Source: Bacteroidota bacterium
GTDB taxonomy: Bacteria > Bacteroidota > Bacteroidia > UKL13-3
Assembly: GCA_027487835.1 (NCBI GenBank)
Contig: JAIYCU010000028.1
Span: 86,930-122,249, forward strand
Direction of reading: 5' to 3'
Length of the DNA stretch: 35,320 nt
Position numbers and translations under genes: made by a program
Notes under the pieces: model-generated
Told to the model about the DNA's origin: nothing
The model's input: only the letters and a program-made list of their open reading frames with translations
The model's database searches: none
Shown: positions 16,084-30,269 of the stretch, piece after piece
Numbering within the stretch: the stretch's first letter is position 1
Layout: each line of letters starts with the position of its first letter

Positions 16084-16884
16084 TTAATTATTACCAACAA
16101 ACGGCACCAGTGGGTCTCCAACCCTAATGGTGCCGTTTTTGTTTAAGGCAATTAGGTTCACCCCAAACATTACTTTATTGTTAAAGGTTCTATATTTTGC
16201 CAGCGTAGCCAAGGGCTCTTTACCTTGAACTGCTGTTTCTTGGTTAATGGTAGTAACGGTGCATCGTGCACAAGGTTTAGCCATTTTAAATAGGGTTGAA
16301 CCAATCAAAAATTCGTTGAAAGTATCCTCCACAAATGCTTCTCCCCCGCTAAAAACAAGGTTTGGTCTGAACCGATTCATTGATACTTTTTCTGCTATTT
16401 TTTCATTTAAGTTGCCCAAAGAACTTTCACCAATTAACAAATAAGGAAAACCATCTGCAAAACTTAAGTCATAGGTATCATTCACATACCCAACAGGAAC
16501 TTCTCTGCTTGATGGAATTATCTTAACCAAGCTAATCTCCATATTAAACCAATTAGACAAGGTTAAATCAATTTCTGGATTAACACGATATGCCATTGGA
16601 AAATCATCCCAAACCTTGGTTAAAATGGGAATGCCATACACTTCATCTTTTCGAAACGAAATGTGAGCCCCTAAGTATGAAATCTCAATGAATTCATTCC
16701 GATCATGCACCATGGCTAAGGCCATGGATGGCAGATTTCTTTGAGAAATAAATTCATTATCCTTATTTACTAACATCCAGTTTCTATCCAATTCAAAACC
16801 ACCCGTTGCAATAGCTGCTTCATGAACTGCAATGCCTGCCATACCTTTAATAGGATAAATATTTAATTGGGTGATTTTATACAT
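16084..16884 (-). CDS. MOSC-domain protein (mARC/YcbX-like molybdenum cofactor protein)
   Basis: The product is about 266 residues. The N-terminal beta-barrel subdomain begins 'LNIYPIKGMAGI', and 'FELDRNWMLVN' is typical of MOSC_N. The MOSC domain has 'RFRPNLVFSGGEAF', 'KPCARCTVTTIN', 'KEPLATLAKYR' and 'VRVGDPL'-type ending. The second Cys of 'CARC' aligns, from memory, with the cofactor-ligating Cys of mARC. The family reduces N-hydroxylated compounds using a molybdenum cofactor. I prefer ATG 16884 (MYKITQL), matching the usual short N-terminus. ATG 16896 is in frame four codons upstream, but abuts the susD terminator T-run. The gene is convergent with gcvP, with 3 nt between the stops. No molybdopterin biosynthesis gene is in the window. 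Confidence 0.88.
   Translation of the reverse strand: MYKITQLNIYPIKGMAGIAVHEAAIATGGFELDRNWMLVNKDNEFISQRNLPSMALAMVHDRNEFIEISYLGAHISFRKDEVYGIPILTKVWDDFPMAYRVNPEIDLTLSNWFNMEISLVKIIPSSREVPVGYVNDTYDLSFADGFPYLLIGESSLGNLNEKIAEKVSMNRFRPNLVFSGGEAFVEDTFNEFLIGSTLFKMAKPCARCTVTTINQETAVQGKEPLATLAKYRTFNNKVMFGVNLIALNKNGTIRVGDPLVPFVGNN
16099..16144 (+). terminator. gcvP terminator inside the opposing gene
   Basis: A perfect 11-bp stem (AAACGGCACCA 16099-16109 with TGGTGCCGTTT 16128-16138) with an 18-nt loop is followed by TTGTTT. It lies within the last codons of the MOSC gene. Confidence 0.8.
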
Positions 16885-16896
16885 GGGTTCAAACAT

Positions 16897-16929
16897 AAAA
16901 AAAACGAGTCACCAATGGTGACCCGTTTT
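16897..16929 (-). terminator. Terminator of the susCD operon
   Basis: Read on the minus strand, the stem AAAACG-x-GGTCACC/GGTGAC-x-CGTTTT (arms 16917-16929 and 16901-16913, one mismatch, 3-nt loop) is followed by an eight-base T-run. It lies 38 nt after the susD stop and ends at the MOSC gene's first ATG. Confidence 0.88.
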
Positions 16930-26603: not shown

Positions 26604-28136
26604 TTAATCCTTTAAATCAAGTGTTTTTACCGGGCGAAGGTCTTCTTGGTCTACTCTTGGCTGTCTCTTCACAACTGGCCTAATGATTCTAAATTCCACT
26701 TTTCTATCCAATCCCTCGGTTGCCATTTGGTATTTTTGAACATAGGGATCCTTTTCTGAAAAAACCAACATTCTATTCTCAGGAATTTCATACACTTTAT
26801 ATAATCTGCGTTTAACCTCCAATGCTCTTTTTTCAGCTAAGGTAAGCTGTGTCAAATTTGGTTTATTGTTATCTGCATGTCCAACAATTACTAAAGAAGC
26901 AGTGGTATCAATCATTAATATTCTGGCGATTTGTTGAAGAATATTGTATTGCTCTACATGCACTGTAAAATGATTAGGTGGGAAAGTTAAAGTAGGCAAG
27001 CCCATTCCGCTTTGAGAAATCGTAACGAAATCTGTCATTGGAATAGAGTCATTTATTTTTAATACACCCCCATCAGAGCCCTGACCAGCATTTCCTTCTG
27101 GAAAATATTGCCCTAAGGCTTGGCTAAAACCGAATGGATCTTTATCTTCTGTGTCAGGAATTCCATCCCCATCACTGTCTAATGTTACTCCTTTACTATC
27201 TACTTTGTAACCTTCTTTAGTATTAAGTTCTTGGTCGATACTGTTAGGAATCCCATCTTTATCATCATCCAATTTCATCGCCTCAATTTCTTCTCTTGAC
27301 TTTTCTAAATCTCTATAAATTTTATCTATTGGATTGTACCAATCTATATGTTTAGGCTTGTTAGCAGAGGTAAAATTGTAAACAATATTAGCAACAAAAA
27401 AACCGTTACCATCTGGCGCAGAGCCGTAACCATCGAGTAAATCCAAATTATCGGTTTTATTTAATTGGTAGTTAAATTCAAAACCAAAATCGAAATTTTT
27501 TGTAATCTTTCTTTTATATCCAATTGTTACTGGAATTGAAATCGCGCGGTCATTAATAGATAAATAATAAGGTATAGCAGGATTACCAGTGTCTTGAGGA
27601 TTATCTCTTCTGGCATTGAAAAATTGCATACTAGCACCGGCACCAAAATAGAAATTGTCTCTTGGAAAACTTTTTCTAAAATCAACACTCCCCACATTAA
27701 ATAAAACTTGGAGGTTAAATGTATTTATTTTTGTAGTAAACCAAGCGTTCTTGTAATCATCTGTTTCTTTACCAGAAAATTTGCCATGAAGGTATTGTGC
27801 CCTGATTCCCAAAACATGACTAAATGAATATTTTACATATCCACCATAGGCTGGATACATAGCATCTGCTGGTACATCCCCTAAATAATAAGAAGCACCA
27901 TAGTTTGCCCCAAAGGAAAATTTACTATAATCTGTCTTAGGGATTATATTCATGGTATCCTTTGCCTTTTCTTTTTCTGAGGCAGGTGTGGCTTTACCGC
28001 CATAAATTGGCGTCATATCTGGGGTTGACAGTTTATTCATACCCTTTTCTTCACTTGATTTAAGTGATTTATTTTGGGCATAAATGCTGTTAGCAAATAC
28101 TACTATGCAAATGGTTATTAAAAGAAAAGTTCTCAT
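26604..28136 (-). CDS. Outer-membrane barrel protein with C-terminal OmpA domain
   Basis: The 510-residue product has a signal peptide ending 'NSIYAQ' (1-21). A barrel domain (about 70-258) ends in 'IVYNFTSANKPKHIDWYNP'. A short calcium-binding TSP3-like stretch (about 285-330: 'DDDKDGIPNSID', 'DSDGDGIPDTEDKDP') leads to a C-terminal OmpA-like domain (about 390-495: 'VIVGHADNNKP', 'AEKRALEVKRRLY', 'LDRKVEFR'). It should link the outer membrane to peptidoglycan. The 'HIDW' tail of the barrel recurs in the neighbouring upstream gene, so the two are probably related. The start codon is buried in a 12-bp RNA stem (see the element at 28127-28191). It is likely in one operon with the upstream gene (86-nt gap), with the hairpin controlling its share of expression. 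Confidence 0.88.
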   Translation of the reverse strand: MRTFLLITICIVVFANSIYAQNKSLKSSEEKGMNKLSTPDMTPIYGGKATPASEKEKAKDTMNIIPKTDYSKFSFGANYGASYYLGDVPADAMYPAYGGYVKYSFSHVLGIRAQYLHGKFSGKETDDYKNAWFTTKINTFNLQVLFNVGSVDFRKSFPRDNFYFGAGASMQFFNARRDNPQDTGNPAIPYYLSINDRAISIPVTIGYKRKITKNFDFGFEFNYQLNKTDNLDLLDGYGSAPDGNGFFVANIVYNFTSANKPKHIDWYNPIDKIYRDLEKSREEIEAMKLDDDKDGIPNSIDQELNTKEGYKVDSKGVTLDSDGDGIPDTEDKDPFGFSQALGQYFPEGNAGQGSDGGVLKINDSIPMTDFVTISQSGMGLPTLTFPPNHFTVHVEQYNILQQIARILMIDTTASLVIVGHADNNKPNLTQLTLAEKRALEVKRRLYKVYEIPENRMLVFSEKDPYVQKYQMATEGLDRKVEFRIIRPVVKRQPRVDQEDLRPVKTLDLKD

Positions 28137-28191
28137 ACGTTGGGACTTAGCCTGATTATGGTGCTAAGTTAATCCCAAAGTATGAGAACTT
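28127..28191 (-). promoter_or_regulatory. Long hairpin enclosing the start codon of the OmpA-like gene
   Basis: Outer stem of 12 bp: 28127-28138 pairs with 28180-28191 (AAGTTCTCATAC and its complement). After a 1x1 mismatch, TTGGGA/TCCCAA pairs (28140-28145 with 28173-28178). Then CTTAGC/GCTAAG pairs (28146-28151 with 28163-28168), with a 4-nt bulge and an 11-nt loop. In total 24 bp, perfect apart from the mismatch and bulge. The ATG at 28136-28134 is inside the outer stem. On the mRNA the 3' arm runs into TTTTCTTTTAAT, so it could act as a terminator/attenuator as well as hiding the start. Confidence 0.7.
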
Positions 28192-28222
28192 AAGAATATT
28201 TTTTTTCTCAGTTATCTACAAC

Positions 28223-30151
28223 CTATTGTGCATTGTATATATAGATCCAAGTATAAGGGTCTATTTCTTTTCTTGCTTTACGCGCCAATTTCAAAGCTTC
28301 TTCCTTATCATTAGTAGATAAAATAGATAATCTTAACAATTGCGATTTCATCGAGGTTCTGAAAATATTGGTAGTAAACCCTCTATTCTCAAGTTTCTTC
28401 TGATTAAGTTTAGCAATATTTAATTTGTTTACACTGTAACAAGCCACAACCACATTGTATTTATACATTGGCGGCGCAACTTCATTTGACTTTGGTTGAG
28501 CAGGCTGTTTAGCTGGTTCTGGTGTTGGCACAACTACTACTGGCGTAGGTTTTGGCTCTACAACTGGCTTAGGTGCAACTTTGGGTTCTACAACTGGCTC
28601 AGGTTTAGGCTCTACTACTGGCTCAACAACTGGCTCAGGTTTAGGCTCAGGCTTAGGCTCTTCTACTACTGGCTCAGGTTCAACAATTGGCGCAGGCTCA
28701 ACTTTTGCAATCGTGTCTACTGTTGGCTTTTCTAAAACTGGTAGTTTTGGCGTTAATTTCTTTCTGTTCTTAAAGTTATTATATGTACTATGTGACCAAT
28801 CGATATGTAATCTAGTCTTACTTGCTCCAATCTTGTATGTAATACCTGTATGAATAAATAAATGACTGTTCAAATTTGGTTTATCATAAGCTTGATCCAA
28901 CCATTTAGATTGGTTATAACTAAAATCAACACCTGCGATTAAGTCAAAGGAGTTGGTTAAAAACCTTCTAGCCTCATAGCCAAGAACTATGTTCTGAATA
29001 CCTGGTGACAAGTAAAGCTTCGTATCTTCAACTTTAGGTTTATTTGAAAAGCTTGCAGTACCAATTGCAGTTATATAACCAATACCAACAGACCCAAAAT
29101 GATTCCAATCTCTTCTTCCGAATGGCTCTTTAACCAAATTTCTCAAGTTAAAATGAATTCTACCTGTAAACTGGTTAATTGAAGTTTCATATGAAATTAT
29201 TGTTGCAGGTAATCCTGGGATTGCTCCGCTTGCATTTGAATTGCCACCAGCAAAATTACCTGAATTATAGTTTAAAGATAATCCAATTGCCTTGGTAAAT
29301 GAACGTCTTAGACCAACTCCCATCATACCCGTTAGCTTATATCCACCAACTGGAGAGAATAAATAGGGCACACCTGCCGTAATATCTAAGCCCCATTTAG
29401 CGTAGTTTGGAATAGGTTCATTGGGTTCTTCCATGTTTTTCTTACTCCAATCAATTAGATTATTCCAAGGTTTAGCGCCAAGTTTAACCGAAACTCCAAC
29501 ATAAAAATTTAGGTATTGGTCCAATTTTGGATTGGACGACTCTTTTAAACCATCCAAATAATATGTTTCTGCAATGTGGTATTCAACACCACCATACATA
29601 TCTAAGTTAGCATTTAAATAATAACGTGTACCTAAACCTAATTGCCAATCTCTGTATGGCTTTCCAAATTTCTTAAAATCCCAACCTGTACCATTAACAA
29701 ATCTTACTGTTGGTTTGTAATAGTTAATACCTGCTCCAAAATTTAAAAATGGCATCCAACGATTTTCTGACTTTCTATCTAAACCAAAAAGATTTTGAAG
29801 GTTATAATAAGCAATACCATTAAATCCATAAACTTGAGAACGATAGCTTAACACATCTGAAACTGTGCCATCTAAGGTAGTTTTTGGTGGATTACCTGTG
29901 CTATTGTAATAAGTATTTGAAGTTAATTTTGCTTCTAAAGACCATTTCTTATTAAATGAATACCTCAACGCACCTGTATATAAACCTACAAATTTAGATT
30001 TAACGGAGAAAAATGTAACAGGTACTCCTAATGCCATACTAGCAGATAACCTTTTTGGCTTAACTTGGGCAATAGCGGATGTACTCAAAGAAACAATCAA
30101 TAAAAACGCTATTAATTGATTAATTCTGATGGTTTTGGGAAAGCGTTTCAT
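28223..30151 (-). CDS. Double beta-barrel protein with Pro-rich linker and SPOR domain
   Basis: The 642-residue product has a signal peptide ending 'STSAIAQ'. Two similar barrel-like halves follow: the first ends 'VSVKLGAKPWNNLIDWSKK', the second 'ITYKIGASKTRLHIDWSHS'. A long Pro-Glu-Val linker comes next, and a C-terminal SPOR domain (about the last 80 residues, 'YKYNVVVACYSV', 'RGFTTNIF', 'LLRLSILS', 'WIYIYN'). SPOR domains bind septal or denuded peptidoglycan. I chose ATG 30151 (MKRFPKT), a clean signal peptide; ATG 30157 is possible. The upstream ATG at 30187 is unlikely because a consensus promoter overlaps that stretch and transcription would begin after it. The OmpA-like gene follows on the same strand. 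Confidence 0.82.
   Translation of the reverse strand: MKRFPKTIRINQLIAFLLIVSLSTSAIAQVKPKRLSASMALGVPVTFFSVKSKFVGLYTGALRYSFNKKWSLEAKLTSNTYYNSTGNPPKTTLDGTVSDVLSYRSQVYGFNGIAYYNLQNLFGLDRKSENRWMPFLNFGAGINYYKPTVRFVNGTGWDFKKFGKPYRDWQLGLGTRYYLNANLDMYGGVEYHIAETYYLDGLKESSNPKLDQYLNFYVGVSVKLGAKPWNNLIDWSKKNMEEPNEPIPNYAKWGLDITAGVPYLFSPVGGYKLTGMMGVGLRRSFTKAIGLSLNYNSGNFAGGNSNASGAIPGLPATIISYETSINQFTGRIHFNLRNLVKEPFGRRDWNHFGSVGIGYITAIGTASFSNKPKVEDTKLYLSPGIQNIVLGYEARRFLTNSFDLIAGVDFSYNQSKWLDQAYDKPNLNSHLFIHTGITYKIGASKTRLHIDWSHSTYNNFKNRKKLTPKLPVLEKPTVDTIAKVEPAPIVEPEPVVEEPKPEPKPEPVVEPVVEPKPEPVVEPKVAPKPVVEPKPTPVVVVPTPEPAKQPAQPKSNEVAPPMYKYNVVVACYSVNKLNIAKLNQKKLENRGFTTNIFRTSMKSQLLRLSILSTNDKEEALKLARKARKEIDPYTWIYIYNAQ
28515..28708 (-). 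repeat. Pro-Glu-Val low-complexity linker repeats
   Basis: DNA for about 65 residues of imperfect PEPVVEPK-type repeats, with recurrent ACTGGCTCAGG-like units on the plus strand. It is a flexible or rigid spacer between barrels and the SPOR domain, and a likely site of length variation. Confidence 0.8.
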
Positions 30152-30167
30152 AGTCATTAATTTGCAA

Positions 30168-30198
30168 CAAATATAAAGTAAATTCATTCTATGGCAAA
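30168..30198 (-). promoter_or_regulatory. Promoter of the SPOR-barrel gene with very short leader
   Basis: On the minus strand TTTG (30198-30195), a 19-nt spacer, then TATATTTG (30175-30168): a full consensus match. The start site would be near 30161, only about 4-10 nt before the ATG at 30157 or 30151. Confidence 0.8.
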
Positions 30199-30269
30199 GT
30201 AAATAAAAAGTTAAACCTTTTTATCTACCACCTAATAAATGAAACCTTCCATTAAAAATAGTAAAACTC

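Follow-up and report, generated by a model that had tools for sequence, protein, structure and literature searches.

A conserved hairpin encloses the start codon of an OmpA-family gene in a group of Bacteroidota and may insulate it from its upstream neighbour

The locus

The stretch of DNA analysed here, 35,320 nucleotides from a Bacteroidota genome, is called the window below. On its minus strand two genes for outer-membrane proteins follow each other, and a long interrupted hairpin spans their junction. Its parts, with the evidence used, are:

28223 to 30187, minus strand: upstream gene, an outer-membrane beta-barrel protein of 654 amino acids if read from its first ATG (translation may in fact begin at 30157); ORF check, Pfam
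26604 to 28136, minus strand: downstream gene, an OmpA-family outer-membrane protein of 510 amino acids; ORF check, Pfam
28180 to 28191, minus strand: left arm of the 12-bp outer stem; sequence reading, shuffled folds, inverted-repeat search
28127 to 28138, minus strand: right arm of the outer stem, containing the ATG (28136-28134); sequence, ORF check, folding
28173 to 28178, minus strand: left arm of the 6-bp middle stem; sequence, folding
28140 to 28145, minus strand: right arm of the middle stem; sequence, folding
28146 to 28151, minus strand: right arm of the 6-bp inner stem; sequence, folding
28152 to 28162, minus strand: loop of 11 nt with the predicted transcription start of the OmpA-family gene (about 28155-28159), as judged from the position of the -7 box

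The ORF coordinates of both genes were confirmed. Pfam assigns OmpA to the downstream gene, the product of which begins, judged by eye, with something resembling a signal peptide; to the upstream gene it assigns an outer-membrane barrel domain. An earlier, sequence-only reading of this DNA had spoken of a SPOR-barrel gene. The barrel is borne out by Pfam, which reports no SPOR domain there at E <= 0.001.

The hairpin

The outer stem is formed by 28191-28180 with 28138-28127. A 1 x 1 mismatch (T28179/C28139) separates it from the middle stem (28178-28173 with 28145-28140), and a 4-nt bulge (28172-28169) separates the latter from the inner stem (28168-28163 with 28151-28146). The sequence-only reading had described three stacked stems at 28127-28191 with the downstream ATG inside the 12-bp one; geometry and coordinates are borne out. 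The minimum free energy (MFE) of the 121-nt minus-strand RNA 28110-28230 is -37.7 kcal/mol, that of the hairpin alone -28.2 kcal/mol. Shuffles of the same stretch reach -16.25 +/- 3.01 and none of 200 folds as low (z -7.1), in line with the earlier statement that a stem of this length is unlikely by chance. When 312 genes from a total of about 435 kb of this genome are folded, no start codon is less accessible than that of the OmpA-family gene (0.0006 unpaired, followed by 0.0007), and the local MFE of the junction ranks second lowest.

The element is a single copy in its own genome: no other is found below E 0.7, the next match being at E 0.78. Across 62 genomes of the family, the strong matches to a model of the element sit at the OmpA junction, in 18 genomes (17 of genus g1 and G064); away from the junction the best match has an E value of 6.4e-5 (G015) and the rest 0.009 or weaker. 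Nor does the hairpin appear to belong to a named RNA family, and the earlier reading had known of none with this form: between 27900 and 28450 no Rfam family reaches its gathering score (best 21.5 bits versus 83).

Conservation and covariation

An OmpA-family orthologue is present in 19 of 19 genomes of the window's own genus, g1, and, at E <= 1e-60, in 35 of 64 genomes of the family. The 35 junctions compared are distributed over g1 (19), g7 (3), g5 (10), g10 (2) and g6 (1). The hairpin is found at all 19 g1 junctions, each time with the ATG in its outer stem; the one in L018 folds weakly (-11.3). Of the three orthologue-bearing genomes of g7, L046 has the same hairpin, L027 and L028 do not. 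In a tree of 32 OmpA-family proteins (L032, L074 and L075 were omitted as partial), one branch splits the hairpin rows from the labelled others, and the unlabelled L027 and L028 cluster with L046. This would fit a single origin of the hairpin with loss in L027 and L028.

The pairing was evaluated in an alignment of 20 sequences with 26 pairs, by counts that ignore relatedness: 90.2% of the cells are paired versus 85.3% after shuffling, nine pairs show double changes versus 4.8 (one of 500 shuffles is as high), and there are 24 further pair types versus 18.7. Slid registers yield at most 40.1% paired cells and at most 5 pairs with double changes. The double changes are found in several lineages, i.e., the own clade, L046, L021 and L020/L022/L024. 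Covarying pairs in orthologous loci had been suggested as a check of the proposal that the hairpin sequesters the start codon. These pairs, together with the predicted accessibility of the ATG described below, support it.

The palindrome might also act as DNA, as an operator that overlaps the OmpA promoter and binds a dimeric regulator. The predicted -7 box is indeed flanked by palindromic arms and the sequence of the outer arms is well conserved; conservation of the right arm, however, is to be expected from its coding role. Moreover, the double changes preserve pairs, GU cells outnumber AC cells by 35 to 9 in the 20 hairpin junctions, which a DNA palindrome does not favour, and in 15 of 20 the sense strand has a lower MFE than the antisense strand. 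The excess of GU over AC and the better folding of the sense strand argue for an RNA on the mRNA strand, and the element has a single copy in the genome; we consider this explanation very unlikely. The long inverted repeat could likewise be left over from a mobile or repetitive element such as REP or MITE. This origin is contradicted by the single copy in the own genome and by the location of the strong matches in the 62 family genomes, and it retains next to no probability.

Promoter-like signals

Three further motifs, all on the minus strand, have to be introduced here:

28163 to 28171, minus strand: TAACTTAGC, predicted -7 box of the OmpA-family gene, a conserved motif; with its final six bases it supplies the left arm of the inner stem
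28212 to 28220, minus strand: TGTAGATAA, a conserved motif 2 nt past the stop codon of the upstream gene; it may be an activator site or an upstream promoter element
30194 to 30201, minus strand: TACTTTGC, -7-like box of the upstream gene, resembling the TAnnTTGY motif of PMC9723704

A box TAnnTT[AG]GC lies 24-29 nt 5' of the ATG in 35 of 35 orthologue junctions, i.e., in all 20 with the hairpin and in all 15 without it. TGTAGATAA is invariant near the upstream stop codon in the same 35 junctions from five genera (its loci beyond the window are L009-L033, L046-L053, L074 and L075). The spacing from start to start is 47 bp in 32 of them, 48 in two and 49 in the window; the spacer itself shows 35% ungapped identity between genera.

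Primary-sigma promoters of Bacteroidota are described as having TAnnTTTG at -7 (PMC7366714, PMC9723704). The window's TAnnTTAGC is one base off this motif, and its distance to the ATG suits a promoter. It differs in that A replaces the third T of TTT, that by sequence reading a TTG near -33 (spacer 19-20) is absent, and that the fixed TGTAGATAA is found 47-49 bp upstream instead. In 163 upstream regions of the own genome TAnnTTTG occurs 45 times versus 21.7 in shuffles (antisense 31), TAnnTTAGC, with the window's own counted, 9 times versus 2.8 (3.1 in a first-order control; antisense 5). Of the 45 TAnnTTTG sites 10 have a TTG at spacer 19-20, as do 7 of 29 TAnnTTnGC sites. Among the 26 TGTAGATA sites in 645 kb of the own genome, the window locus is the only one with a -7 box at similar spacing. 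Because this pair is unique there, no regulon backs the promoter, and none is claimed.

From these motifs we infer that the OmpA-family gene has a promoter of its own, consisting of the -7 box and an upstream element. Transcription would begin within the loop, near 28155-28159, and the leader would comprise about 20 nt; the median leader reported for F. psychrophilum is 24 (PMC9723704). Since the box overlaps the left arm of the hairpin, this transcript should lack that arm. The sequence-only reading had considered its proposal incompatible with a transcript start downstream of 28180, and the predicted start in the loop comes close to this situation. The upstream gene, to judge from TACTTTGC, probably also has its own promoter. 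GTAGATAA, which precedes that gene in the window, was discarded, being absent from 6 of 6 other readable loci.

The start codon in two predicted RNAs

Bacteroidota mRNAs lack Shine-Dalgarno sequences; as none is expected here, it is the ATG itself that is paired. Its accessibility should depend on where the RNA begins. A read-through RNA from the upstream barrel gene would contain both arms, fold and bury the ATG. The own-promoter RNA would begin in the loop, and as it would lack the left arm, its start codon would be out of the hairpin's reach.

By prediction the two RNAs differ, though the start codon opens in the own-promoter RNA to a modest and uneven degree. In the read-through RNA the ATG is unpaired at 0.001-0.013 in 18 of 19 g1 junctions (median 0.001) and at 0.001 in L046; in the own-promoter RNA of g1 the median is 0.38 (range 0.03-0.65). 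Values below 0.1 are predicted for the own-promoter RNA in four of the 19 (L013, L015, L021, L032), via other local folds, and L021 reverses the contrast (0.374 in the read-through versus 0.09 in the own-promoter RNA). In the hairpin-free genus g5 the medians are close, 0.37 for read-through and 0.51 for own-promoter RNA. There is no contrast in g10, where both are low (0.05, 0.08).

Possible termination at the junction

The feature that brings termination into play is the following:

28120 to 28128, minus strand: TTTTCTTTT, T-rich tract starting at the third base of codon 3 and reaching codon 6 of the OmpA-family gene, candidate U-tract of a terminator; sequence, tract score

TTTTCTTTT follows directly 3' of the hairpin and has its first two bases in common with the right arm. 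The T-tract score is 3.31-5.86 in the 20 hairpin junctions versus 1.06-3.79 in the other 15. Randomisation of synonymous codons, with codon use from six genes of the window, reaches the observed tract in 0.15-0.53 of the trials in all 19 genus members tested; selection on the tract via codon choice was thus not found in these junctions. The U-rich stretch after the 3' arm that had been pointed out before does exist but is not enriched beyond synonymous codon use in the 19.

The terminator d-score (computed by script) is positive in 13 of 20 hairpin junctions in one scan and in 7 of 20 once an intact closing pair is required; three of the 13 that are not positive in the strict scan have no scored hairpin at all. 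A standard terminator scan did not list the hairpin, probably since its loops were limited to 3-8 nt.

Hairpin and canonical terminator are distributed complementarily. A canonical GCCC(C)/GGGC hairpin with a T-run lies between TGTAGATA and the box in 10 of 10 g5 junctions (d 16.4-43.0) and in none of the 25 non-g5 junctions, the 20 hairpin carriers included. Both g10 junctions have a hairpin with a T-run that includes the box and ends just 5' of the ATG (d 5.9). At the old terminator position L046 still has GCCC-ATT-GGGC but lacks the T-run, as if a terminator had eroded there. In L027, L028 and L030 the canonical terminator is missing and no hairpin scores positively.

In E. coli, as reported in PMC4824070, ribosomes repress terminators just past a stop codon, yet terminators can be active inside the first 100 bp of a coding sequence, so that the position of the hairpin is permissible. 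It is plausible from the sequence that the hairpin ends the upstream transcript. The attenuator- or terminator-like role that had been considered before is supported in this sense, more weakly than start sequestration, the T-tract not exceeding codon expectation.

A proposed insulating junction

The best explanation we can offer is a junction that insulates the OmpA-family gene from its neighbour, and we rate its chance of being right as about even. Read-through RNA would be locked and perhaps terminated, own-promoter RNA would escape, and several signals would share about 70 bp. The promoter would consist of the TAnnTTAGC -7 box in the left half of the hairpin and of TGTAGATAA 47-49 bp upstream; hairpin and T-tract might also terminate the upstream transcript, and the hairpin would then fill the role that a separate canonical terminator has in genus g5. 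A more far-reaching version has terminator, promoter, start codon and translational lock superimposed in one hairpin of the g1/g7 lineage, which replaces the canonical terminator, and a bipartite TGTAGATAA-TAnnTTAGC promoter with an almost rigid 47-bp spacing that is fixed in the family. This version is tentative and somewhat less probable than even.

Two other explanations at the RNA level have to be weighed. The hairpin may be nothing but an intrinsic terminator of the upstream gene, its overlap with the ATG being a by-product of the short intergenic space without any hiding role. Like such a terminator, it is a stable hairpin followed by a T-rich tract, with no other terminator found before the box, and the complementary distribution speaks for this function, as does the terminator-like hairpin of g10 that stands just before the ATG and leaves it outside. 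In the own genome, too, 4 of 180 tandem gaps (that of OmpA included) have a terminator-like hairpin next to or across the following start, versus 0.2 in shuffles, and one of these hairpins recurs in other genus members. Yet the T-tract is not above codon expectation, d is not positive in 7 of 20 junctions, or in 13 of 20 with the strict closing pair, and a long interrupted stem is uncommon among terminators; overlap with the start and first codons of the next gene and a promoter-like box inside are further differences. Termination alone is therefore rather unlikely to explain the element. A start-sequestering regulator in the OmpA gene's own leader, be it a thermometer or a ligand or protein switch, would account for an ATG in a conserved covarying stem, and in Flavobacterium johnsoniae initiation is reported to be tuned by structure near the start codon (PMC6847099). 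The family-conserved -7-like box in the left half, however, predicts an own mRNA without the left arm, no Rfam family reaches its gathering score, and the hairpin is very stable. RNA thermometers are weak, imperfect helices of low stability, whereas the hairpin has -28.2 and the 121-nt stretch -37.7 kcal/mol; a stem of about -28 kcal/mol would seem too stable for a physiological thermometer. The thermometer of the sequence-only reading is thus unlikely, its switch within one mRNA is not favoured, and regulation in the own leader as a whole appears improbable.

The insulating junction is best read, by analogy, as the principle of phage T4 gene e combined with that of a terminator. In the leaders of T4 gene e and I-TevI, as described in PMC3014915, a hairpin in the long early transcripts masks the ribosome binding site, and the late promoter is located within the region encoding the hairpin's 5' strand. 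The early long RNA of gene e is locked, the late-promoter RNA is well translated, and the two are about 100-fold apart (PMC3014915). The OmpA junction would share with gene e, as far as that source describes it, a promoter (here predicted) in the 5' strand and a lock that would affect only the RNA started upstream, and the initiation region of the latter is predicted to be paired in 18 of 19 g1 junctions and in L046. It differs from gene e in several respects: it concerns a bacterial chromosomal envelope gene with no known timing switch, a T-tract follows the stem, the hairpin substitutes for a terminator, and the ATG itself is paired, no Shine-Dalgarno sequence being expected. Our search of the accessible literature turned up no case in a bacterial chromosome of a promoter and a start codon enclosed together by a terminator hairpin; this argues only weakly that none exists.

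If the insulating junction is real, the same DNA tells RNAs apart by their starting point. Compact Bacteroidota genomes could then insulate neighbouring transcription units without extra DNA, simply by placing the promoter of the next gene inside the terminator-like hairpin of the upstream one. The family would offer a comparative case in which a canonical terminator is swapped for another insulation device at a fixed promoter, and with TGTAGATAA it would supply a specific sequence to consider as an upstream promoter element.

Other hairpins and paired starts

Some further sites deserve mention in their own right. At 16897-16925 of the window (minus strand) a strong terminator, CGGGTCACC/GGTGACTCG plus T8, adjoins the first ATG of the gene 16084-16896, the true start of which may lie a few codons downstream; in 12 of 18 loci of the genus, the own one included, a hairpin with d > 0 and a T-run stands ahead of the point where the match begins. 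A second hairpin with a T-run overlapping an ATG (d 9.6) is seen at L080 13861-13904 (C9 of the own genome, minus strand). Its gene has a match in only 1 other of 19 genus genomes, and no such hairpin was scored there. At L061 13129-13319 (C23 of the own genome, about 153130-153320) a start codon is predicted to be almost fully paired (0.001); it is situated 89 nt past an ORF on the same strand, with a canonical-looking terminator upstream of the start. Finally, positions 891-928 of the window form a perfect, terminator-like inverted repeat of 17 bp with a 4-nt loop.
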